Assembly: GCF_014696315.1 (NCBI RefSeq)
Contig: NZ_JACJPX010000033.1
Location: 1-64,000, forward strand
Length of the DNA: 64,000 nt
DNA from: Calothrix membranacea FACHB-236
GTDB taxonomy: Bacteria; Cyanobacteriota; Cyanobacteriia; Cyanobacteriales; Nostocaceae
Direction of reading: 5' to 3'
Positions 8,308 to 21,497 of this stretch are shown here, one piece after another (positions within the stretch are counted from its first letter, which is position 1; every line of letters begins with the position of its first letter). The translations under genes were made by a program, and so were the position numbers. The notes below the pieces were generated by a model. The model made no database searches. It saw only the letters and a list, made by a program, of their open reading frames with translations, and was not told the DNA's origin.

Positions 8308-9005
8308 AACATTTTCTACAACGTCGTGATGTTTTGCGGTTGGGAATCACTGGTACATTGGGGATGATGGTCACTACCAGTGATTTACTTTGGCGAGTTC
8401 AACAGGCTCAAGCCGCAGAAAAGCCTCAACCCCTCAGCCCCGATGAAGCATTGCAAAAGCTAATTGAGGGAAATCAACGCTTTATCGAACATCAACCCCA
8501 ATACCCAGATCAATCGGCGGCGCGGTTGCAGGAAGTAGCGCAAGCACAACATCCCTTTGCAACCATCCTCACTTGTGCAGATTCACGAGTACCCGTAGAA
8601 ATTCTTTTCGATCAAGGTGTTGGAGATATCTTTGATATTCGGATTGCGGGGAATATTGCCACACCAGAAGCCCGTGGCAGCATTGAATATGCTGTAACGC
8701 TGTTAGGTTCGCCTTTGCTAATGGTACTGGGCCACGAGCGTTGCGGAGCCGTCACAGCCGCCGTGCAAAACGAAGTGCTGCTGGGTGATATTAGTACCTT
8801 TGTGAATGCAATTAAGCCAGCCGTCGCCAGAGTGAAAAATCAGTTAGGTGACCCAGTGGAGAACGCTGTCGTCGCCAATGTGCAATATCAAATTGAACGC
8901 TTAAAGCGATCGCGTCTTTTAACTGAAAGCTTACAATCTGGCAAACTCAAAATTGTGGGAGGTCGTTACGATTTAGATACAGGCAAAGTCAGTATTATCG
9001 CTTAG
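8304..9005 (+). CDS. Beta-type carbonic anhydrase with twin-arginine-like export signal
   Basis: This 233-residue beta-carbonic anhydrase has zinc ligands and the catalytic dyad in CADSRVP (Cys91, Asp93, Arg95) and HERCGAV (His144, Cys147). The N-terminus has a twin-arginine motif (QRRDVLRLG) followed by a hydrophobic stretch and an AQA-A cleavage-like site near residue 37, so it is probably exported to the periplasm like EcaB. The start ATG overlaps the sbtB stop by four bases. It interconverts CO2 and bicarbonate, so beside SbtA it could supply or scavenge bicarbonate at the outer face of the membrane. The enzyme call is firm; export is inferred from the signal. Confidence 0.92.
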   Translation: MKHFLQRRDVLRLGITGTLGMMVTTSDLLWRVQQAQAAEKPQPLSPDEALQKLIEGNQRFIEHQPQYPDQSAARLQEVAQAQHPFATILTCADSRVPVEILFDQGVGDIFDIRIAGNIATPEARGSIEYAVTLLGSPLLMVLGHERCGAVTAAVQNEVLLGDISTFVNAIKPAVARVKNQLGDPVENAVVANVQYQIERLKRSRLLTESLQSGKLKIVGGRYDLDTGKVSIIA

Positions 9006-9149
9006 GGCTGAAATTTGCCGTCTGGTACCTCGTGGAAGCACTACAATCGATAAAAGGACATTGTTCACTAGCTACCCCACTTTACCCATGACGGCAACAT
9101 TAATTCAGAGTCCTGAGATTGGGTACGAGAAAATTTAGCAACCTAACTG

Positions 9150-9190
9150 TATAGAACATGGCGTTGCTAGCTGCGATCGAAGTTGAAATA
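9150..9190 (+). repeat. Left copy of an imperfect direct repeat flanking a toxin-antitoxin module
   Basis: The segment with AGAACATGGCGTTGCTAGCT and following bases matches 9871-9911 at nearly all positions. It encodes MALLAAIEVE and then stops, whereas the right copy continues as a 98-codon ORF. It is therefore a truncated duplicate of the 5' end of the gene at 9879, on the other side of the vapBC-like pair. Confidence 0.75.
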
Positions 9191-9209
9191 CCCCAGAACT
9201 AAGAAATAT

Positions 9210-9599
9210 TCACCAAGCGATCGTTTGTAAGTTTTCAACCTCCTGAAAGTGAGCATCGCGTGTTACTAAGGTCAAATTATATTGGAGTGTGAGTGCTGCA
9301 ATCCAAATATCATTTTCTGGCAAGGGACGACCTTTGAAACGTAACTTGTGTTTCACTTCACCATAATATCGAGCCGTTTCTGTATTACATTCGAGTACAG
9401 TATTATTAGCAATAAATTCATCAATACGTTGTAAATTTTCTTTTGATCGCCCTGATTTTCTTGCACCATAAAATAACTCACCCACTGCAATACTGGGGAT
9501 AAATACTTCATCTGCTTGTGCAAGGCTATTTTTAACCTCTACTTCATTTGCGAAGAGAGCAATAATGATATTAGTGTCTAATAAATATCTACCACTCAT
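9210..9599 (-). CDS. PIN-domain toxin, VapC type
   Basis: This 129-residue PIN-domain ribonuclease has acidic residues in LLDTNIIIAL (Asp near 7), VGELFYGARK (Glu), ENDIWIAA (Asp) and VTRDAHF (Asp), the usual four-acid metal site. VapC proteins cleave tRNA or rRNA when freed from their antitoxin. I chose the ATG at 9599 because the family starts MSGxYLLDTN; the longer frame to 9629 would run deep into the antitoxin. The start overlaps the antitoxin stop by 11 bases, the typical coupled order antitoxin then toxin. Imperfect direct repeats lie on both sides of the pair, suggesting mobility. Confidence 0.88.
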   Translation of the reverse strand: MSGRYLLDTNIIIALFANEVEVKNSLAQADEVFIPSIAVGELFYGARKSGRSKENLQRIDEFIANNTVLECNTETARYYGEVKHKLRFKGRPLPENDIWIAALTLQYNLTLVTRDAHFQEVENLQTIAW

Positions 9600-9816
9600 C
9601 AGTGTCAACTTGCTCACAGCCTTGTTCAATTGCTTCGCTGATTAGCTGTAAGTCTTCTGTTGGTATTGCACCCGCAAAACGTAATAGTTGCCAACCGGGA
9701 ACACCTTGAATTTTGGAACTTGCTAATGAGCGTGCAAACTCAAGTACTTGCGATTGTAAGTCTTGGGGCATTACTTTCAGTTGTTCAATTACCTGATCGA
9801 GGATAGATGTATCCAT
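9589..9816 (-). CDS. Antitoxin partner of the PIN toxin (VapB/DUF2281-like)
   Basis: This 75-residue protein begins MDTSILDQVIEQLK and has the pattern of short cyanobacterial antitoxins (LPxDLQxQVLEFARSL, then a toxin-binding acidic C-terminus ending VDTDEW). ATG 9816 was chosen over 9831 because AGGAAA lies about seven bases upstream of it. The stop overlaps the toxin start. It is expected to neutralise the PIN toxin and autorepress the pair. Confidence 0.75.
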   Translation of the reverse strand: MDTSILDQVIEQLKVMPQDLQSQVLEFARSLASSKIQGVPGWQLLRFAGAIPTEDLQLISEAIEQGCEQVDTDEW

Positions 9817-9870
9817 CTTGCTTTCCTGCAAAACATCATAAGTTTATTCTACGTGGAGTTACCTTGAGTG

Positions 9871-9911
9871 TAGAGAACATGGCGTTGCTAGCTGCTATCG
9901 AAGTTAAAGTA
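9871..9911 (+). repeat. Right copy of the direct repeat flanking the toxin-antitoxin module
   Basis: It matches 9150-9190 except for a few substitutions and contains the start of the hypothetical gene at 9879. Together the two copies bracket about 680 bases holding the toxin-antitoxin pair. Confidence 0.75.
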
Positions 9912-10175
9912 GAGCTTGTTATTCAGTATTCTCGTCATTTGCGGAATATTGTAGTCAAGCACCTTGAGTTACCGGGTTTGAATTTTAGAGTAACTTCAGA
10001 TTCCACAATTGGCGGTTGTCCAATCGAAGCACTCGATATCCCACCAAGAATAATTAATCCAAATGGGGAACCTCGCTATGATTTGTTGAACTTCCGGCTG
10101 AAGACTAAGTTAGACTGTTCTAATTTCCATCGTGGGCAGAAAGTTTTGGTTGAAAAGCTTCTGTTAGTTGAGTAG
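9879..10175 (+). CDS. Hypothetical protein, 98 residues
   Basis: The protein starts MALLAAIEVKVE and ends VLVEKLLLVE. It has no signal peptide or membrane segment and I do not recognise a domain. The frame extends upstream to 9807, but ATG 9879 is preferred because the first ten codons are exactly those preserved in the repeat copy at 9158. It is divergent from the toxin-antitoxin pair and convergent with secA, from which it is separated by a hairpin. It may be an intact small gene or a fragment of a larger family left after rearrangement. Confidence 0.55.
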   Translation: MALLAAIEVKVELVIQYSRHLRNIVVKHLELPGLNFRVTSDSTIGGCPIEALDIPPRIINPNGEPRYDLLNFRLKTKLDCSNFHRGQKVLVEKLLLVE

Positions 10176-10215
10176 TTTAAGATGGTTATTCTCGGACAGG
10201 TCTAATACAAAAATC

Positions 10216-10250
10216 AGTCAAGAGGTCTAAGTTTTTCAGACTTCTTGACT
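10216..10250 (-). terminator. Hairpin terminator downstream of secA
   Basis: A 13-bp stem (AGTCAAGAGGTCT paired with AGACTTCTTGACT, one G-U-type mismatch) encloses a 9-base loop. On the minus strand it is followed by a short T run (TGATTTTTG), fitting intrinsic termination of secA; it may also stop the convergent small gene. Confidence 0.75.
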
Positions 10251-10292
10251 GCGATTCATTTTGTAGTTGCTATTTTACAAACTGCTTCAGTG

Positions 10293-13085
10293 TTAAACCA
10301 TCTCCGATGATGTTTGCACTACAGGCTGCGGCTGTGGCTGGAACATGAACAAGGAGTAAACCACATCTCGGCGGATGTTGACCATCATATCCAAGAAGAG
10401 TTCATAACCTTCGCTCTTATACTCAATTAATGGGTCTTTTTGACCATAACCACGCAATCCTACAGATTCACGCAGCGCATCCATTTGTTGCAGGTGTTCC
10501 CGCCACAGGGTATCGATGCGTTGCAAAATAAAGAATCGTTCGGCTTGGCGCATTAATCCTGGCTGAATTTGGTCAATTTGCGCTTCTTTGAGGTCGTAGG
10601 CAATTCTTACCTGTTCGTGGAGGAAGGCTTTAATTTCAGCTACCGCCATATCTTCTAATTGATTTGGCTGCATGTCTCCCAACAAATAGACAAATTCCTT
10701 GACTTTATCCACCAACTTTTCTAATTCCCACTCTTCTGAGGGCAAATCGACGTTGATGTAATAGTCAACGATTTCGCTCATTGTTTTTTCGGCGTAAGTG
10801 ATCACCTGTTCTTTCAGGTCTTGACCTTCTAGCACCCGGCGGCGTTCGGCGTAGATGGCACGACGTTGGTTGTTCATAACTTCGTCGTACTCAAATACCT
10901 GCTTCCGGATGTCGTAGTAGTAGGTTTCGACTTTTTTCTGTGCGCCTTCCAAACTGCGAGTCAGCATCCCGGATTCAATGGGCATATCTTCTTCGACGTT
11001 GAAGGCGTTCATTAAACCAGCAACGCGATCGCCACCAAAAATCCGCAGTAAGTTATCTTCTAAACTGAGGAAGAATCTGGTGGAACCAGGGTCACCTTGT
11101 CTACCTGCACGTCCGCGCAATTGGTTGTCAATCCGGCGGGATTCGTGGCGTTCTGTACCAATTACGTGCAATCCACCTAGTTCCACCACTTCTTCATGTT
11201 CGCGGTGGGTGAATTGTTCGTATTCGTGCTTGACAAGGTTGTATGCTGCCCGCAATTTTTGAATTACAGGGTCATCAATGGGGGCTTTTTCGGCGGCTAC
11301 AGCTACTTTTTCTTCGGCTTCTAATTCCGGTAAACTGCGATCGCCATATTCCCGCACTGCTAAATCTACAGCTTCTTTTAATTGCTGTTCAGCTTCTTTG
11401 GATAACTGGGTGGGGAAAATTTCGGGGGAAGCGCGCCAGGTTTTAACTTTTTTCCCAGGGACAAAACCTTGTCCGCCGCCGCTTCCTGTTGGTAAACCAG
11501 ATGCTCTTTGTACGCCAAAGGTGTCTTCATCTTCTGGTTGCACAATCCGGGGCATAAAATATTCTCGCAGTTTCAGCCGGGCCATGTATTCAGAGTTACC
11601 ACCGAGGATAATATCTGTACCTCTACCAGCCATGTTGGTGGCGATAGTTACAGCACCTCTGCGTCCTGCTTGAGCGACAATTTCCGCTTCCCGTTCTACG
11701 TTTTCGGGGCGTGCATTTAGTAACTCATGGGGGATTTCCATCTGCTTCAGCAGTTGGCTGAGATACTCAGATTTTTCTACGCTAGTGGTGCCGACTAATA
11801 CAGGCCTACCCTGTTCGTGCATTTCTCCACATTCGCGGGCGATCGCTTGCCATTTGCCTGCTTCTGTCTTAAAGACCATATCAGACAAATCTTGCCGTCT
11901 TCTGATCCGGTTGGTAGGAATAATGGTGACTTCAAGCTTGTAGATTTTTTCAAACTCAGCTTCTTCTGTCTTTGCTGTTCCGGTCATTCCTCCCAACTTA
12001 GGATACAGCAAGAACAGGTTTTGATAGGTAATTGTTGCCAAAGTTTGAGTTTCTGGCTGAATTTCTACATGTTCTTTAGCTTCAATAGCTTGGTGCAGAC
12101 CATCACTCCAACGTCTTCCCGGAAGCACCCGTCCGGTAAATTCATCCACAATCACTACTTCGTCATTGCGGACAATATAGTTGACATCCTTAAGGAACAG
12201 TTCTTTGGCTTTAATCGCATTAAATACAAAGTGCGCCCAAGGGTCTTCTGGGTCAAATAAATCGGTTACACCCAAAAGGTTTTCGGCTTCCGCAAAGCCT
12301 TCATCAGTCAACAGCACGTTCCGCGCTTTTTCATCTACCTCATAATGCTCATCTTTTTTGAGAGCAAAGGAGATTTCAGCTGCTTGTAAATATTTTTCTG
12401 TCGGTCTTTCTACCTGCCCAGAAATAATCAGTGGTGTCCGCGCTTCATCTACTAAAATTGAGTCTACTTCGTCGATGACGCAGTAATTAAAGGGGCGTTG
12501 TACCACATCTGCCATTGATGTGGCCATGTTATCCCGTAGGTAATCAAAACCTACTTCGCTGTTAGTGACGTAAGTAATATCACAGTCATAGTTTTTTTGC
12601 CGTTCGCTGGGAATCATGTTCGCTTGAATTAGCCCTACACTCAATCCCAGGAAGCGATGCACCTGACCCATCCATTCCGCGTCCCGACGCGCCAGGTAAT
12701 CGTTCACGGTAATAACATGTACACCTTTACCAGTGAGGGCATTTAAATAACTTGGTAAAGTCGCCACCAGGGTTTTACCTTCCCCAGTCTTCATTTCCGC
12801 GATTTGCCCACTGTGCAGAATAATACCACCCAACATCTGCACATCAAAGTGCCGCAGGCCTAAAACTCGCCGTCCTGCTTCCCGAACCACGGCAAAAGCT
12901 TCTGGCAGAATATCATCAAGGGTTTCCCCTTTGGCAAGCCGCTGTCTAAACTCGCCTGTTTTGCCTTTTAACTCCTCATCGGAAAGCGCTTTAATATCTT
13001 CCTCTAAGAGGTTAATTTCCGTAACGTAAGGTTGGTATTTTTTAAGTTTACGAGCGTTGGGATCGCCCAACAAAGTTTTTAGCAT
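10293..13085 (-). CDS. secA: Preprotein translocase ATPase SecA
   Basis: This 930-residue protein is the motor of the Sec pathway, driving unfolded preproteins through SecYEG at the cytoplasmic and thylakoid membranes. The Walker A is EMKTGEGKT near residue 100, the DEAD-like Walker B is [21 protein letters not shown] near 207, and motif VI includes [11 protein letters not shown]. The preprotein-crosslinking and scaffold domains follow in normal order. The C-terminus is a Pro/Gln-rich tail (PQPQPVV) without the zinc-binding Cys cluster found in many proteobacterial SecA proteins. The start is ATG 13085. It is a monocistronic core gene. Confidence 0.98.
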
Positions 13086-14856: not shown

Positions 14857-17800
14857 ATGAAATACCATGTTAAATCTCTTACCGCTTTTACTTTAATACT
14901 TTCTTTAATTTGCCCGATCGCAGCAGCAGCTAATAACCGTCTATCAGTCAAAAATACTTTAGCCCAATCAACAACCACGAACAATCGCCAAGCCCAAGCT
15001 AATCGGCTGTTACAGCAAGGAATTAAACAAGCGAATACTAAACAGCTAGATGCTGCATTGCAGTCTTTACAACAAGCATTAAATATCTATCAACAAATTA
15101 AAGATTTGGCGGGACAAGGTCAAACTCTGCAAAAATTAGGTGATGTTTATGCTGCCAAAAAAGATAGTAGCAAATCTATTGCTGCCTACGAGCAAAGTTT
15201 GGTAATAGCACGGCAAATTAATAACCGAGATTTAGAAGCTAGAAGTCTGCTGAATTTAGGTGTGGTATACAACAGCATCAAGAAATATGATAAAGCACTA
15301 GAGTTTTTACCACAGAGTTGGCAAATCGCCCAGAATATCAACAGTCGTGAGTTGCAGTTGCAATCTTTAATTCAGTTATTTGAAGCTTATAACGCTCAAG
15401 GTAATACTGTCAAAGCGCAAGAATATCAACAGCAATTAGCTACTAATTTTGGCGATGTAATTAAATATGTAGTAGCATTTCAATCTTATAGCCAAATAGC
15501 TGTATTGACAGAACAAAAACAATACCAAAAAGCTATTGAAGTTGGGCAGCAGGTACTAGATTTTTTTCAAACAAATAAACTTAATAATGATGATAGTAAA
15601 TTATTAATCAGTTTATCTGGTATCAACGATGCATCAATTAAGCCAGAATTGCTGCAAAAAACTCTACAGTTGGCAGTAATGGTACAATTAATTCAAACTT
15701 ATGATGCTGTGGCTGACTATCCAAAAATTATCCAGCTTGGTGAACAGTTACTCACATCTGTACGTAATCTGAATGCAGATGAGTGGACAATACTAGCTAA
15801 TATTTCCGGTCAGCAACAAAGTAATTCATTAGCAGAATTTAAGAAATTATCAGAAATGGGTGTTTTGTGGTTACTAGCAAAATCACATGACATTTCTGGA
15901 GAATACAATAAAGCGATTCCCTTGGCGCAACAAGCTATACAAATATCGCGGGAATTGAAAAATCCAGAGTATGAAGCTAATGGATTGCTAACGCTAGCTA
16001 GTGCTTCTAAATCCCTAGCTGTAACTGATACAGAACATCGTCAGGCTTTAGAATTAGCCCAACAAGCTTTGACAATTGGCAAAAACATCAAAAATTCAGA
16101 GATTGAGTCAGACGCGTTGAATGCGATCGCTGAGATTTACAGTAATGTTGATGAATATCAAAAAACTATTGAGTTTGCTTCTAAAAGTTTAGAAATAGCT
16201 AAAAAAAGCCAAAATCCGGCTGCAACTGTCAAATCTTTATTGACATTATCTAGCACTTATATCAGTTTAGGAAACTACCAAAAATCTAGCGAATTATCTC
16301 AAGAAGCATTAACTATTGCTCGCAAGATTAAGCAAATTCCTATAATTGAAGCCACATCTATGTTGTATTGGACTTTTAATCAGTTTATTCAAGGAGACTA
16401 TCAAAAGACGATTGCTTCATCGCAAGAAGGGTTAAATTTAGTACCTCAGATTAACATCCCCTATTACCAACAACAATTTTTGATGTTGAATAATCTATTT
16501 TTAGGAATTGGGTATGGGGGATTGAATGATAATCAAAAAGCCCTAGATTACATTCAAAAGAGTGTGCAAATAGCAAGAAATGCTCAAGATGCTAAATCAG
16601 AAGTGCAAATGCTAGTATATCTAGGCGGGTTTTATCGAAGGGCAAAACAATACCAGCAAGGAATTGATGCCTATAACCAAGCTACTACTATTGCAGATAA
16701 ATTAAATTATTCTGGTAATCGAGCTATATTATATGCAGGTTTAGCGAGAATTTATCGAGATTTAAAGCAACAAACAACAGCGATTGCTTATTATCAAAAG
16801 TCAATTAATGATATTGAGAAAGTTCGGGAGAAAAATCGGGGACTTTCAAAAGACTTACAAACATCTTTTCTGCAATCTGTGCAAGATGCGGATCGGACGA
16901 ATATTGCTGACATTTATCGTGAATACGCTAACTTATTACTGTCTCAAAATCGCAGTTTAGAAGCTAGCCAAGTTTTAGAACTGTTGAAGGTACAAGAGTT
17001 AAGCGAATTTACGAATAATAACAGAGTTGCGAATCTTCCCAAGCCAATGGGTCAAACTCCTATTGAAGCCAAACTGATAAAAAATTATGGGAGTTTGATT
17101 GCTTTTGGACAAAAATTTGATGAATGTCAAAAAAATAATTGTGGGGAGAAAACTAAATTAGCAGATGAACGAGATGCTTTGATTTCTGAGTTTAATCAAA
17201 AGATTCAAAACTTAGAGAAAAATGTGCGCGATCGCCTTTCAAAAGACCGAGGTAATCTTGATACTCAAGACCTGAGAAGTATAGGCAAGAAAATTGTCGA
17301 ATCGCAACCAGGGACAGTGTTAATTAATGTGTTTGTAGTAGAAGATAAAACCTGGGTTTTGTGGGTATCAAAAGGAGGTGTGGTTAAAAGTGTAGAAGTC
17401 TCTGTAGGTGAACCAAAAATTAGAGAAACAGTGAATAAATTCCGCAAATTGCTGCAAAATCCTAGTTCTGATATTAATGAAGTCAAAGCAACCGGAAAAC
17501 AACTCTATGATTGGTTAATTAAACCACTAGAACCAGAGTTAAAAGCCAATAAAATTGAAAATTTGGTATTTTCTTTGGATCGTGCAGCACGTTATATACC
17601 CATTAGTGCCTTATTTGATGGTAAGCAATATCTAGTAGAAAACTATAATATTTCTACTGTGCTATCTGCTGGCTTAACAGATACAGATTCGCGCCTTCCA
17701 GCTGGAACCGCCAATACCAAAGTTTTAGGCTTAGGTTTATCTAAAGCTGTTCCCGGATTTAATGCTTTACCTAATGTCCCCGCAGAATTAGATGCAATTA

Positions 17801-18423
17801 TTCGCCAAAAGCCTAGCGATAAAAATGGAATTTATCCTGGTCAAGAATATCTCAATCAGGCATTTGATTATCGGACTTTACGCGATAATTTGAAAGGTCA
17901 TAATATTTTGCACATTGCCACACATGGCGTATTTGTCCCAGGAAAACAAGATGATTCTTATTTAGTCTTAGGGACTGGGGAAAAATTGCCAATTCCCAAA
18001 ATTGATAATTTAGAAGATTTAAGTGATGTGCATTTGGTAGTGTTATCTGCTTGTGAAACTGCATTAGGTGAAACAGCAAAAGACGGGTTAGAAATTCCTG
18101 GTGTTAGCTTTTATTTTCTCAACCGTCGTGCGAAGGCTGTTATGGCTTCTTTATGGTTGGTGGATGATGCTAGCACTAGTTTACTAATGCAACAATTCTA
18201 TGCAAACTTAGCGAAAGATAGCCACCCAACAAAAGCCCAAGCTTTGCGCCAAGCGCAACTGAGTTTATTGCGTAGTAATAATTCTGCAAATAGCAATGTT
18301 GAACGAGGCGCAATTAATGTCGAAGCAGTACCAGGCGCACCTACAACACCAAAAAGAAATCTTACTAACTTTACACATCCTTATTATTGGGCACCATTTA
18401 TTTTGATGGGTAATGGCTGGTAA
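14857..18423 (+). CDS. Secreted TPR-CHAT domain protein, caspase-like protease candidate
   Basis: This 1188-residue protein has a signal peptide (about residues 1-24, cleavage near AAAANN), then about fourteen tetratricopeptide-like repeats (about 50-690), a coiled linker (about 690-800) and a C-terminal CHAT domain. The CHAT catalytic dyad is intact: His1023 in HIATHG and Cys1066 in LSACETALG. CHAT domains are caspase/separase-like cysteine proteases named after HetF; HetF takes part in heterocyst differentiation, while other CHAT proteins act in defence or cell death. With an export signal, this one should act outside the cytoplasm. AAGGAA precedes ATG 14857. Substrate unknown. Confidence 0.9.
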   Translation: MKYHVKSLTAFTLILSLICPIAAAANNRLSVKNTLAQSTTTNNRQAQANRLLQQGIKQANTKQLDAALQSLQQALNIYQQIKDLAGQGQTLQKLGDVYAAKKDSSKSIAAYEQSLVIARQINNRDLEARSLLNLGVVYNSIKKYDKALEFLPQSWQIAQNINSRELQLQSLIQLFEAYNAQGNTVKAQEYQQQLATNFGDVIKYVVAFQSYSQIAVLTEQKQYQKAIEVGQQVLDFFQTNKLNNDDSKLLISLSGINDASIKPELLQKTLQLAVMVQLIQTYDAVADYPKIIQLGEQLLTSVRNLNADEWTILANISGQQQSNSLAEFKKLSEMGVLWLLAKSHDISGEYNKAIPLAQQAIQISRELKNPEYEANGLLTLASASKSLAVTDTEHRQALELAQQALTIGKNIKNSEIESDALNAIAEIYSNVDEYQKTIEFASKSLEIAKKSQNPAATVKSLLTLSSTYISLGNYQKSSELSQEALTIARKIKQIPIIEATSMLYWTFNQFIQGDYQKTIASSQEGLNLVPQINIPYYQQQFLMLNNLFLGIGYGGLNDNQKALDYIQKSVQIARNAQDAKSEVQMLVYLGGFYRRAKQYQQGIDAYNQATTIADKLNYSGNRAILYAGLARIYRDLKQQTTAIAYYQKSINDIEKVREKNRGLSKDLQTSFLQSVQDADRTNIADIYREYANLLLSQNRSLEASQVLELLKVQELSEFTNNNRVANLPKPMGQTPIEAKLIKNYGSLIAFGQKFDECQKNNCGEKTKLADERDALISEFNQKIQNLEKNVRDRLSKDRGNLDTQDLRSIGKKIVESQPGTVLINVFVVEDKTWVLWVSKGGVVKSVEVSVGEPKIRETVNKFRKLLQNPSSDINEVKATGKQLYDWLIKPLEPELKANKIENLVFSLDRAARYIPISALFDGKQYLVENYNISTVLSAGLTDTDSRLPAGTANTKVLGLGLSKAVPGFNALPNVPAELDAIIRQKPSDKNGIYPGQEYLNQAFDYRTLRDNLKGHNILHIATHGVFVPGKQDDSYLVLGTGEKLPIPKIDNLEDLSDVHLVVLSACETALGETAKDGLEIPGVSFYFLNRRAKAVMASLWLVDDASTSLLMQQFYANLAKDSHPTKAQALRQAQLSLLRSNNSANSNVERGAINVEAVPGAPTTPKRNLTNFTHPYYWAPFILMGNGW

Positions 18424-19232: not shown

Positions 19233-19838
19233 ATGCAACCCCAACGTACTGCTGTGCTATTGATTGGTTTTCAAAATGACTACTTTGCGGCTGACGGGAT
19301 TCTACATAATGTAATTGAAGAATCTTCAAGAGCTACCAAAGTACTAGAAAACACTGTTGAGCTTGTACAATGTTTGCTAGCAACTCCAGTGTTACTAATT
19401 GCGACACCAATTTTTTTTACGCCGAACTATCAAGAATTAATTGAACCTGTGGGAATTCTCAAAACTATCAAAGATGTTGGGGCTTTTCAAGTTGGTACCA
19501 AAGGTTCGCAGATGATTGATGAGTTATTCCCCTTTCGTAGCAACATTCTCGAAGTTCCTGGAAAACGAGGATTTAATGCTTTTATTAATACAAATTTAGA
19601 CGAGATTCTTCAAGAAAAAGAGATTACTCATGTAGTTTTGGCTGGTGCTGTTACTTCAGTTTGTATTGATTCTACAGGTCGTTCTGCTCATGAAAAAGGC
19701 TATCAGGTAACAGTTTTGTCTGATTGCACCTCTGCTCGCACTGTGTTTGAGCAGGAATTTTATCATACTCATGTATTCCCCTTGTACGCGGATACAATCA
19801 ACCACACGGAATTACTTCAACGTTTAGCTACAGTATAA
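19233..19838 (+). CDS. Isochorismatase-fold (cysteine hydrolase-like) protein with an apparently missing catalytic Asp
   Basis: This 201-residue protein has the isochorismatase/nicotinamidase fold. The Lys (PGKRGFNAF, about 110) and nucleophile Cys (TSVCIDSTGRSA) regions are present. The family's catalytic Asp, found in the VDxQNDF motif, aligns with Gly12 here (LLIGFQNDYF). Without this Asp, ordinary hydrolase activity is doubtful, so it may bind a ligand or have altered chemistry. The stop codon overlaps the following kinase start (TAATG), so the two proteins are made together. It could supply a signal to that kinase, which is inference. Confidence 0.85.
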   Translation: MQPQRTAVLLIGFQNDYFAADGILHNVIEESSRATKVLENTVELVQCLLATPVLLIATPIFFTPNYQELIEPVGILKTIKDVGAFQVGTKGSQMIDELFPFRSNILEVPGKRGFNAFINTNLDEILQEKEITHVVLAGAVTSVCIDSTGRSAHEKGYQVTVLSDCTSARTVFEQEFYHTHVFPLYADTINHTELLQRLATV

Positions 19839-21178
19839 TGTCAGATTTCAACAATGAATTGCATACACAAATTCAGTACAGTTTGATTGAGAAATTGTCT
19901 GAATCGGAGCGACGTTACCGAGAATTGGTGAATAGTCTGCGCGAAATTGTGTTTAAATGCGATCGCTTGGGTAATGTAAAATTCCTCAACCAAGCTTGGA
20001 CTAAAACCCTTGGCTATCAGGTAGCAGATGTCATTGGTAGCCCTTTAAGCAATTTCATTGACGCAGAAGACCGATACTTATGGCAAGCAACTTTAGAAAA
20101 GCTGCAAACTGGAGTTGAAGTCTGTCAAGAACTCCGCTTTCACCATCAAACTGGTTTGATTGTGTGGCTGGAACTGTCTATTCAACCTTGTGATGAATCT
20201 GAATTCTCGGGTTCGCTGATCCATATTAAGGATCGTAAGCAAGCAGAAGTATTACTAAAGCAAACAAATGAAGAACTGGAAGCTAGAGTAGAACAACGCA
20301 ATACTGAGCTAATTCACGCTAACCAGGAATTAAAATTAACTCTACAAAAACTGAAATTTACTCAGGCTCAATTAGTACAAACTGAAAAAATGTCGAGTCT
20401 GGGACAATTAGTAGCAGGGATTGCTCACGAAATTAACAATCCAGTTAACTTTATTTATGCCAATCTCTCCTATGCATCAGAGTATACAGAAGTATTATTC
20501 CAAATTTTAGAACTTTACCAGCAAGCTTATCCAGTCCCACTTTTACATATTCAAGAAGCAATTAAACATTTCGATTTAGAATTTATTCAACAAGACCTAG
20601 CGAAGCTGTTGCACTCGATGCAAGCAGGTAGCGATCGCATTCGAGAAGTTGTACTATTGTTAAGAAATTTTTCCCGGTTGGATGAAGCAGAAATCAAAAA
20701 TGTTGATATTCACGTGGGTATCGATCACACAATTACATTACTGCGTCATCGCCTCACAACTAATTCGGGAATGATGGTAATTCAAATATTTAAGGATTAT
20801 GGCACAATTCCCCTCATCAAGTGCTATCCCGCCCAACTGAATCAAGTATTCATGAATATTATTAATAATGCTATTGATGCTTTACTAGAGGCAATTAACC
20901 AATCTCAACTGTTCATGCCTACAATTTGGATTAGTACGGAAATCATTGATGAAGTTTGGCTGAATATTCGCATTAAAAACAATGGTTTGCCTATACCTGA
21001 ATCTGTAATGGCGAAAATCTTCGATCCGTTCTTTACAACCAAAGCTGTGGGTAAGGGAATTGGACTTGGTTTATTTGTGAGCTATCAAATTGTGGTAGAA
21101 ATGCACCAAGGTAAATTAACCTGCACTTGCTTACCAAATCAAGAAACAGAATTCTGCATCCAAATTCCCATTGTGTAA
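19838..21178 (+). CDS. PAS-domain sensor histidine kinase
   Basis: This 446-residue cytoplasmic kinase has a PAS domain (about residues 20-130), a coiled-coil linker (about 130-185), a HisKA segment with His197 in AHEINNP, and a HATPase domain ending at residue 446. No membrane segment is seen. In the final G-box region the usual DNGxG is IKNNGLPI, while GKGIGLGLF is kept, so nucleotide binding may be altered. The ATG overlaps the stop of the isochorismatase-like gene by one base. Its kinase core closely resembles those at 39275, 53117 and 60267. No response regulator is adjacent. Confidence 0.9.
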
Positions 21179-21357: not shown

Positions 21358-21392
21358 AATTTAGTAGTGTTCACCCTATCAATTATGAACTA

Positions 21393-21441
21393 TTACCAAT
21401 GACCAATTAGCAATTACCAATGACCAATGACCAATGACCAA
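21393..21441. repeat. Heptanucleotide tandem repeat, seven TGACCAA-type units
   Basis: Seven consecutive 7-base units (TTACCAA, TGACCAA, TTAGCAA, TTACCAA, then TGACCAA three times) lie 56 bases upstream of the rlmN start. Reverse-complemented, the unit is TTGGTCA, the same family as the array at 6303. Confidence 0.88.
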
Positions 21442-21497
21442 TTTGAAACATAAACGGTAGGATAGAGATTCAGCATCCATTTGTGATTGATTAATTT

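Follow-up and report, generated by a model that had tools for sequence, protein, structure and literature searches.

The two adjoining genes at positions 19233 to 21178 of the window, by which we mean the whole stretch of 64,000 nucleotides that was analysed, probably encode a two-subunit sensor in which a catalytically retired isochorismatase fold would bind a ligand and regulate the partner encoded directly downstream. The first protein carries changed residues at the former active site, the relatives that share its Gly fall into one clade, and in nearly all loci of this type the gene is linked to signalling genes, whose output class has changed repeatedly; it also co-occurs with a short helix at the N-terminus of most partners. 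From these observations we infer the binding of a ligand, physical contact between the two proteins and the direction of control; such a sensor would probably be cytosolic.

Both genes are read from the forward strand of an 8.8 Mb genome, which holds two matches to the Pfam family Isochorismatase (PF00857), namely the Gly-type gene of the pair and one gene of Asp type. The first gene (19233-19838, +) encodes a Gly-type isochorismatase-fold protein of 201 residues, the proposed ligand-binding regulatory subunit, and the second (19838-21178, +) a PAS histidine kinase of 446 residues. They meet in a TAATG (19836-19840, +), where the stop codon TAA (19836-19838) and the kinase ATG (19838-19840) have one base in common (19838). 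An earlier note on this DNA had described this overlap correctly, but its word "fused" has to be dropped, since these are two overlapping genes and not a fusion. Nor was any fused first gene and partner found among the Gly-type matches read, of which the longest open frame, at 404 residues, is too short for both proteins. The kinase begins with a 15-residue helix (19853-19897, +), a proposed docking or signalling element recognized by our helix profile (A2) and predicted as a helix in the model of the relative L047. This is followed by a PAS domain (residues 22-137; 19901-20248, +) identified by TIGR00229 and Pfam PAS families (36 bits against a Pfam cut-off of 27), a HisKA region (20399-20494, +) with the H-box AHEINNP at His197 (20426-20428), and a HATPase_c domain (residues 331-444; 20828-21169, +; 66.8 bits against 26.4). 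All parts of a PAS sensor histidine kinase were thus observed, with HisKA at 25.9 bits, one bit below the Pfam cut-off of 26.9. No membrane segment was evident from hydropathy, as the 19-residue mean peaks at 1.24. Two further features were noted around the pair, a TPR-CHAT protein of 1188 residues upstream on the same strand (14857-18423) and a short tandem repeat with the 7-base unit ACCAATG (21385-21442) in the gap 3' of the kinase.

By profile and by fold the first protein is a member of the isochorismatase superfamily. The PF00857 match, the only one in the Pfam scan, spans residues 6-192, near full length, at 116.7 bits against a cut-off of 27. An AlphaFold2 model (pLDDT 92.8, pTM 0.90) was most similar in Foldseek to PDB 3kl2 (TM 0.93, 35% identity), followed by BiuH, RutB and TrtA, and the titles of the matches listed (50 of 140, E ≤ 0.001) were those of isochorismatase-type hydrolases or related amidases. 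Five NCBIfam equivalog families, BiuH and RutB among them, were matched, all far under cut-off (70 bits against 370 for BiuH and 54 against 378 for RutB).

The residues at the former active site suggest that the protein is not one of the active triad hydrolases. According to excerpts of PMC7948467, the triad of TrtA consists of D24, K129 and C162, its Asp binds the substrate and has the proposed further role of activating water, and the position two residues before the Cys is Glu160 in TrtA and Asp173 in BiuH. In the first protein the motif reads LLIGFQNDYF, and alignments without gaps to Asp-type relatives place Gly12 (codon GGT, 19266-19268, +) at the catalytic Asp position, as the earlier note had proposed. 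The position two residues before the Cys, an acid or Asn in most relatives, is Ser142 (19656-19658, +), with Ser in 70 of 72 Gly-type rows, Asn in 4 of 4 close Glu-type rows and Glu or Asp in 25 of 28 Asp-type rows of the alignment. An Arg specific to the Gly type, Arg169 (19737-19739, +), was observed in 71 of 72 Gly-type rows, where the four close Glu-type rows have Val, Thr, Thr and Leu; the Gly-type marks absent from these four rows include Gly12, Asn115, Ser142, Asp146, Arg169 and Tyr185. The loss of two acids together with the gain of an Arg suggests that the ligand may be anionic. Asp16 was considered as a replacement acid and rejected, because ordinary members also hold this second acid (Asp in 26 and Glu in 2 of 28 Asp-type rows), and the alignment shows no other Asp in the active site.

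The other two triad positions are kept, again in agreement with the earlier note. Cys144 (19662-19664, +) occupies the nucleophile position (Cys in 93, Trp in 2 and a gap in 1 of 96 Gly rows), and Lys111 (19563-19565, +) that of the catalytic Lys (Lys in 92 and Arg in 3 of 96), an assignment based on the ungapped spacing of six residues to the conserved Phe117, where a HMMER pair alignment with TrtA instead puts a gap of three residues near Lys111 and pairs a different Lys. Conservation of both residues almost everywhere goes beyond the need of a pure scaffold; we counted it against the sensor-subunit reading, and it keeps an altered or residual enzyme as the chief rival. Such an enzyme would make or destroy a signal sensed by the PAS partner, perhaps by substrate-assisted catalysis or with another group standing in for the Asp, and its nucleophile could survive, as the charge of the Lys lowers the pKa of the Cys in TrtA (excerpts of PMC7948467). 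The substrates of the most similar enzymes of solved structure are biuret, triuret and, for RutB, ureidoacrylate. We nevertheless consider this explanation unlikely, given that the Asp, which in TrtA takes part in substrate binding and has been proposed to activate water, is Gly in the first protein, that Ser has replaced the acid two positions ahead of the Cys, and that two members linked to Ser/Thr kinases (L095, L101) have Trp at the Cys position, which argues against Cys hydrolysis in at least some members. The same two residues could also work as a redox or electrophile switch, with Cys144, near Lys111 and freed of the Asp, reporting to the partner. That both were kept while the acids were lost is consistent with a switch, as is a second Cys (Cys165) in 67 of 72 Gly-type rows; however, Cys165 is also present in every one of the four close Glu-type rows and in 10 of the 28 rows of Asp type and so is not special to the Gly type, and the two members with Trp at position 144 also argue against it, leaving this possibility a slim one.

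To follow the pair through other genomes, a seeded scan over 84,980 species was used, from which the best 80 of 85 loci were taken; the closest copies of the first gene among these were from Nostoc (90-97% identity), and two Nostoc comparisons gave dN/dS values of about 0.09-0.18 for both genes. The seeds included IGFQNDYF, so the share of Gly among the 80 loci is biased. Since one scan seed contains the Gly, a second search was made with a profile (A1) that combined 43 Gly rows with a single Ser row. Among 339 cyanobacterial genomes (E ≤ 1e-25) it found eight matches, seven Gly and one Glu; among 321 genomes from the class to which L055 (Marinobacterium) belongs (E ≤ 1e-20) eleven, with three Gly, two Glu and six Asp; and among 294 genomes from Planctomycetota, the phylum of L081, twenty, with eighteen Gly and two Glu. 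Half of the Gly-type profile matches (14 of 28) repeat earlier loci, G544 and G552 having served as search centres and G551 having been known before. The Gly type is rare, occurring in 7 of 339, 3 of 321 and 17 of 294 genomes, respectively. After merging duplicates by identical extracted core, a step that leaves close relatives and several loci from metagenome bins in the set, position 12 was Gly in 96 rows and Ser in one. Addition of L107, whose open reading frame reads IGFQNDYF though its extracted core missed that column, gave 98 Gly/Ser loci. L105, which has a stop in its own frame, a broken HisKA_2 open reading frame as neighbour and a LytTR regulator further on, stands outside the 98, and L022, from the Asp-type set, misses position 12 and was placed in no class. 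Two other copies were noted in passing. In G103 (L032/L116) a first-gene fragment of 76 residues lies beside a PAS-GGDEF-EAL gene whose open reading frame begins after the helix, and the locus looks damaged; in Pseudoalteromonas a second, divergent isochorismatase-fold paralogue (L068, 4207-4809, -), which by alignment is without Asp, Lys and Cys alike, was found near a Gly-type pair.

A signalling gene was observed directly downstream of the first gene in 94 of the 98 Gly/Ser-type loci, compared with none of the 8 Glu-type and none of the 28 Asp-type loci (all non-redundant), a partner being any same-strand open reading frame that starts -220 to +320 bases from the stop and many control flanks being about 1.5 kb long. 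The single His-type row had no partner by the same test. The three profile searches agreed, with a signalling neighbour in 28 of 28 Gly matches (25 histidine kinases and 3 Ser/Thr kinases) but in 0 of 5 Glu and 0 of 6 Asp matches (flanks of about 1.5 kb). The linkage in which the earlier note would have found its refutation, had it been absent, is therefore strongly kept, while the idea that the neighbour is always a histidine kinase was rejected. The 94 partners comprised 76 histidine kinases, 11 PAS-GGDEF-EAL proteins and 7 Ser/Thr kinases, classes that were assigned by profiles built from some of the same partners and that Pfam confirmed for 16, 9 and 6 of them, respectively. The GGDEF-EAL and Ser/Thr kinase partners widen the idea from a kinase input to a general signalling input. 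Twenty of the 94 pairs overlap by four bases and ten by one base, as in the window; some start codons were overcalled, so large overlaps are unreliable.

Four Gly loci had no scored partner. Two of these are broken or cut, L069 showing a PAS-like start with the helix, truncated by the contig end, and L106 a frame-broken PAS-GGDEF-EAL gene (PAS by Pfam, the remainder by eye). At L045 a same-strand partner is absent and the neighbour, 156 bp off, is a hybrid kinase gene on the other strand that runs towards the first gene, and at L076 the nearest same-strand kinase lies 2.7 kb on, outside the test window. The absence of an adjacent same-strand partner at these last two loci would fit an operon formed for an unrelated metabolic reason, in which the two proteins never meet, and gene order alone is no proof of contact. 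We regard such an operon as very improbable, as the linkage was kept over six phyla and through at least four changes of partner class and the helix co-occurs with the first gene. That six phyla share the Gly, the pairing and the order of the genes also indicates more than chance. A receiver-domain gene lies directly upstream at L068, L079, L082 and L108, which we counted in favour of a sensor subunit.

Other neighbours were also recorded. The upstream protein at L068, L079, L082 and L108 has 311-358 residues, with a C-terminal receiver domain after an N-terminal part to which no domain was assigned, and is encoded on the same strand, making a three-gene signalling array, and homologues of it occupy a comparable place at L086, L092 and L110. 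Directly 3' of the kinase at L038 lies a gene for a carbamoyltransferase and methyltransferase protein of about 1260 residues (8512-12297; Pfam), with a like protein at the same place at L041, L042 and L044 (four cyanobacteria in all, the Pfam scan covering L038). Near the Glu-type L113 a receiver-domain-like open reading frame was seen by eye about 2.9 kb off, not adjacent. Beyond the pair, the neighbours were lineage-local only (the receiver protein in some gammaproteobacteria, the carbamoyltransferase/methyltransferase in four cyanobacteria), too little to name a ligand.

The history of the first protein was examined on a tree from which the position-12 column had been removed (quick search, no bootstrap, root set on eight Asp rows). 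Kept off this tree were L032, L105, L107, L022, L176 (His type), near-identical rows and all but the eight Asp rows. The 73 Gly/Ser rows (one of them Ser), from Cyanobacteriota, Pseudomonadota, Planctomycetota, Verrucomicrobiota, Myxococcota and Bacteroidota and in several cases from metagenome bins, form one clade with an SH-aLRT of 99. The Glu rows adjoin this clade, followed by the Asp rows, and three of the Glu rows have long branches that meet. The acid state at position 12 needs two changes on the tree, the minimum. Partner class (histidine kinase, GGDEF or Ser/Thr kinase) changed at least four times on the first-protein tree and needs three changes on a tree of the partners' helix and PAS region. 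The cyanobacterial copies linked to GGDEF-EAL proteins (L114, L115, L116) nest within the cyanobacterial kinase-linked group, and the helix and PAS halves of their partners, one another aside, are most like the kinase partners of that group, with up to 0.51 identity to cyanobacterial kinase partners. The gammaproteobacterial GGDEF partner L059 is more distant, with 0.32 identity to L114 over the same region. For 60 pairs, the distances between first proteins were correlated with those between partner N-termini (Spearman 0.37, a value that none of 999 permutations reached), the figure being raised in part by the genomes' common ancestry.

Most histidine-kinase and GGDEF-EAL partners carry, just before the PAS domain, a helix with the consensus ELxxQIQYRLIEKL, which in the model of L047 runs on into the PAS domain as one helix. 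The helix profile scored at least 20 bits in 80 of 97 partners (68 of 76 kinases, 10 of 11 GGDEF, 2 of 3 unclassified and 0 of 7 Ser/Thr kinases), the scores of the 30 partners from which it was built being partly so by construction; two further kinases reached 18.7 and 19.1 bits and one GGDEF protein 16.5. Among 5826 open reading frames of the fetched loci, scores of at least 20 bits occurred only in partners and their duplicate copies. Of the 339 cyanobacterial genomes, 17 had a match at E ≤ 0.001. Seven of these were strong (69-79 bits), six of them within the seven Gly-type genomes and one in G265, whereas the seventh Gly-type genome (G442) gave 25 bits. The other nine matches (22-28 bits) were in genomes with no Gly-type match; eight of them align with the second half of the profile only, a stretch that looks like the beginning of many PAS domains, and the ninth, in G338, with positions 11-37. 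A search of six genomes at E ≤ 1 again gave the known partners as the strong helix matches, and the genome of L045 had none, its best match being 16 bits. The match in G265 (L182) is an N-terminal kinase fragment beside an open reading frame that by eye is TnpB-transposase-like, in a genome with no first-gene match in the profile search, and looks like a decaying, truncated copy of the gene pair.

The helix scored nothing in all seven Ser/Thr kinase partners and in the kinases L094, L097, L098, L100, L102 and L104, and so cannot be the sole docking site. Helices N-terminal to PAS domains often pair with each other, and the role of this one may be dimerisation. A model of the first protein with the partner N-terminus gave a pTM of 0.71, a value that speaks neither for nor against contact. 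Six of the Ser/Thr kinase partners (L160, L161, L163, L095, L096, L101) have about 65-105 residues with no domain assigned, and no PAS, ahead of the kinase domain, some of their starts being overcalled, and this N-terminal segment is a possible second docking segment.

The kept signalling linkage and the lack of a second Asp support the proposal of the earlier note that an enzyme fold has been reused as an input or modulator of the kinase, and for the mechanism we infer the following. Having lost two acids (the Asp, now Gly12, and the one two positions ahead of the Cys, now Ser142), gained Arg169 and kept Lys and Cys, the old pocket would most likely still bind a small metabolite, perhaps an anionic or carbonyl-bearing one, with no useful turnover. 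The bound or the free form would then dock on the downstream partner, at its N-terminal helix and PAS region, and alter the partner's output, which would be autophosphorylation in the histidine kinase of the window and c-di-GMP turnover or Ser/Thr phosphorylation in relatives. We see an even chance that this extends to a modular class in which, across at least six phyla, the retired isochorismatase fold serves histidine kinases, c-di-GMP enzymes and Ser/Thr kinases as an interchangeable input, docks mostly through the short partner helix and reads a metabolite in the former active site.

The pair was compared with known enzymes and known sensors. PDB 3kl2, a putative isochorismatase from Streptomyces avermitilis, has the same fold, Lys and Cys and shares Tyr66 and Glu68 of the Gly type, but has Glu where the first protein has Gly, and the eight loci of its Glu-type relatives, among which its own locus is not included, have no signalling gene directly downstream. 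The hydrolases of biuret (BiuH), triuret (TrtA) and ureidoacrylate (RutB) likewise have the same fold (TM 0.81-0.88) and the Lys and Cys of the triad, and differ in having two acids that the first protein has lost, the catalytic Asp and the one that precedes the Cys by two residues. Among sensors, NosP is, like H-NOX, a stand-alone NO sensor, a small soluble protein usually encoded beside the histidine kinase or DGC/PDE that it regulates. The haem-binding domains of these sensors are HNOB or FIST, and the Pfam scan found no such domain in the first protein. H-NOX is described in excerpts of PMC8738867 as a small soluble sensor whose gene usually adjoins that of a histidine kinase or DGC/PDE, which it regulates. 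The Gly type resembles it as a stand-alone gene beside histidine kinase or DGC/PDE genes, and differs in its isochorismatase fold and in having Ser/Thr kinases among its partners. By this analogy, the best reading is that the first protein would regulate its partner as H-NOX does. CpxP and QseG, accessory proteins of histidine kinases, are also separate proteins that modulate a sensor kinase; they are envelope proteins, whereas the first protein is a soluble enzyme fold with partners beyond two-component systems.

A description of the pair was not found in the open-access literature, among the matches listed and as judged from titles and the starts of abstracts; with subscription papers and preprints outside this scope, such an absence is weak evidence. 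Stand-alone sensor subunits are a known kind, and the isochorismatase fold is new in that role. Few stand-alone sensors serve several output classes, H-NOX being the known example compared in our analysis. If correct, the two-subunit sensor would offer a clear example from nature of an enzyme turned receptor, with the acid lost and the signalling linkage kept through changes of output. PAS kinases, diguanylate cyclases and planctomycete Ser/Thr kinases that are otherwise orphans would also gain an input, and a single purified protein would suffice for a direct search for the ligand.
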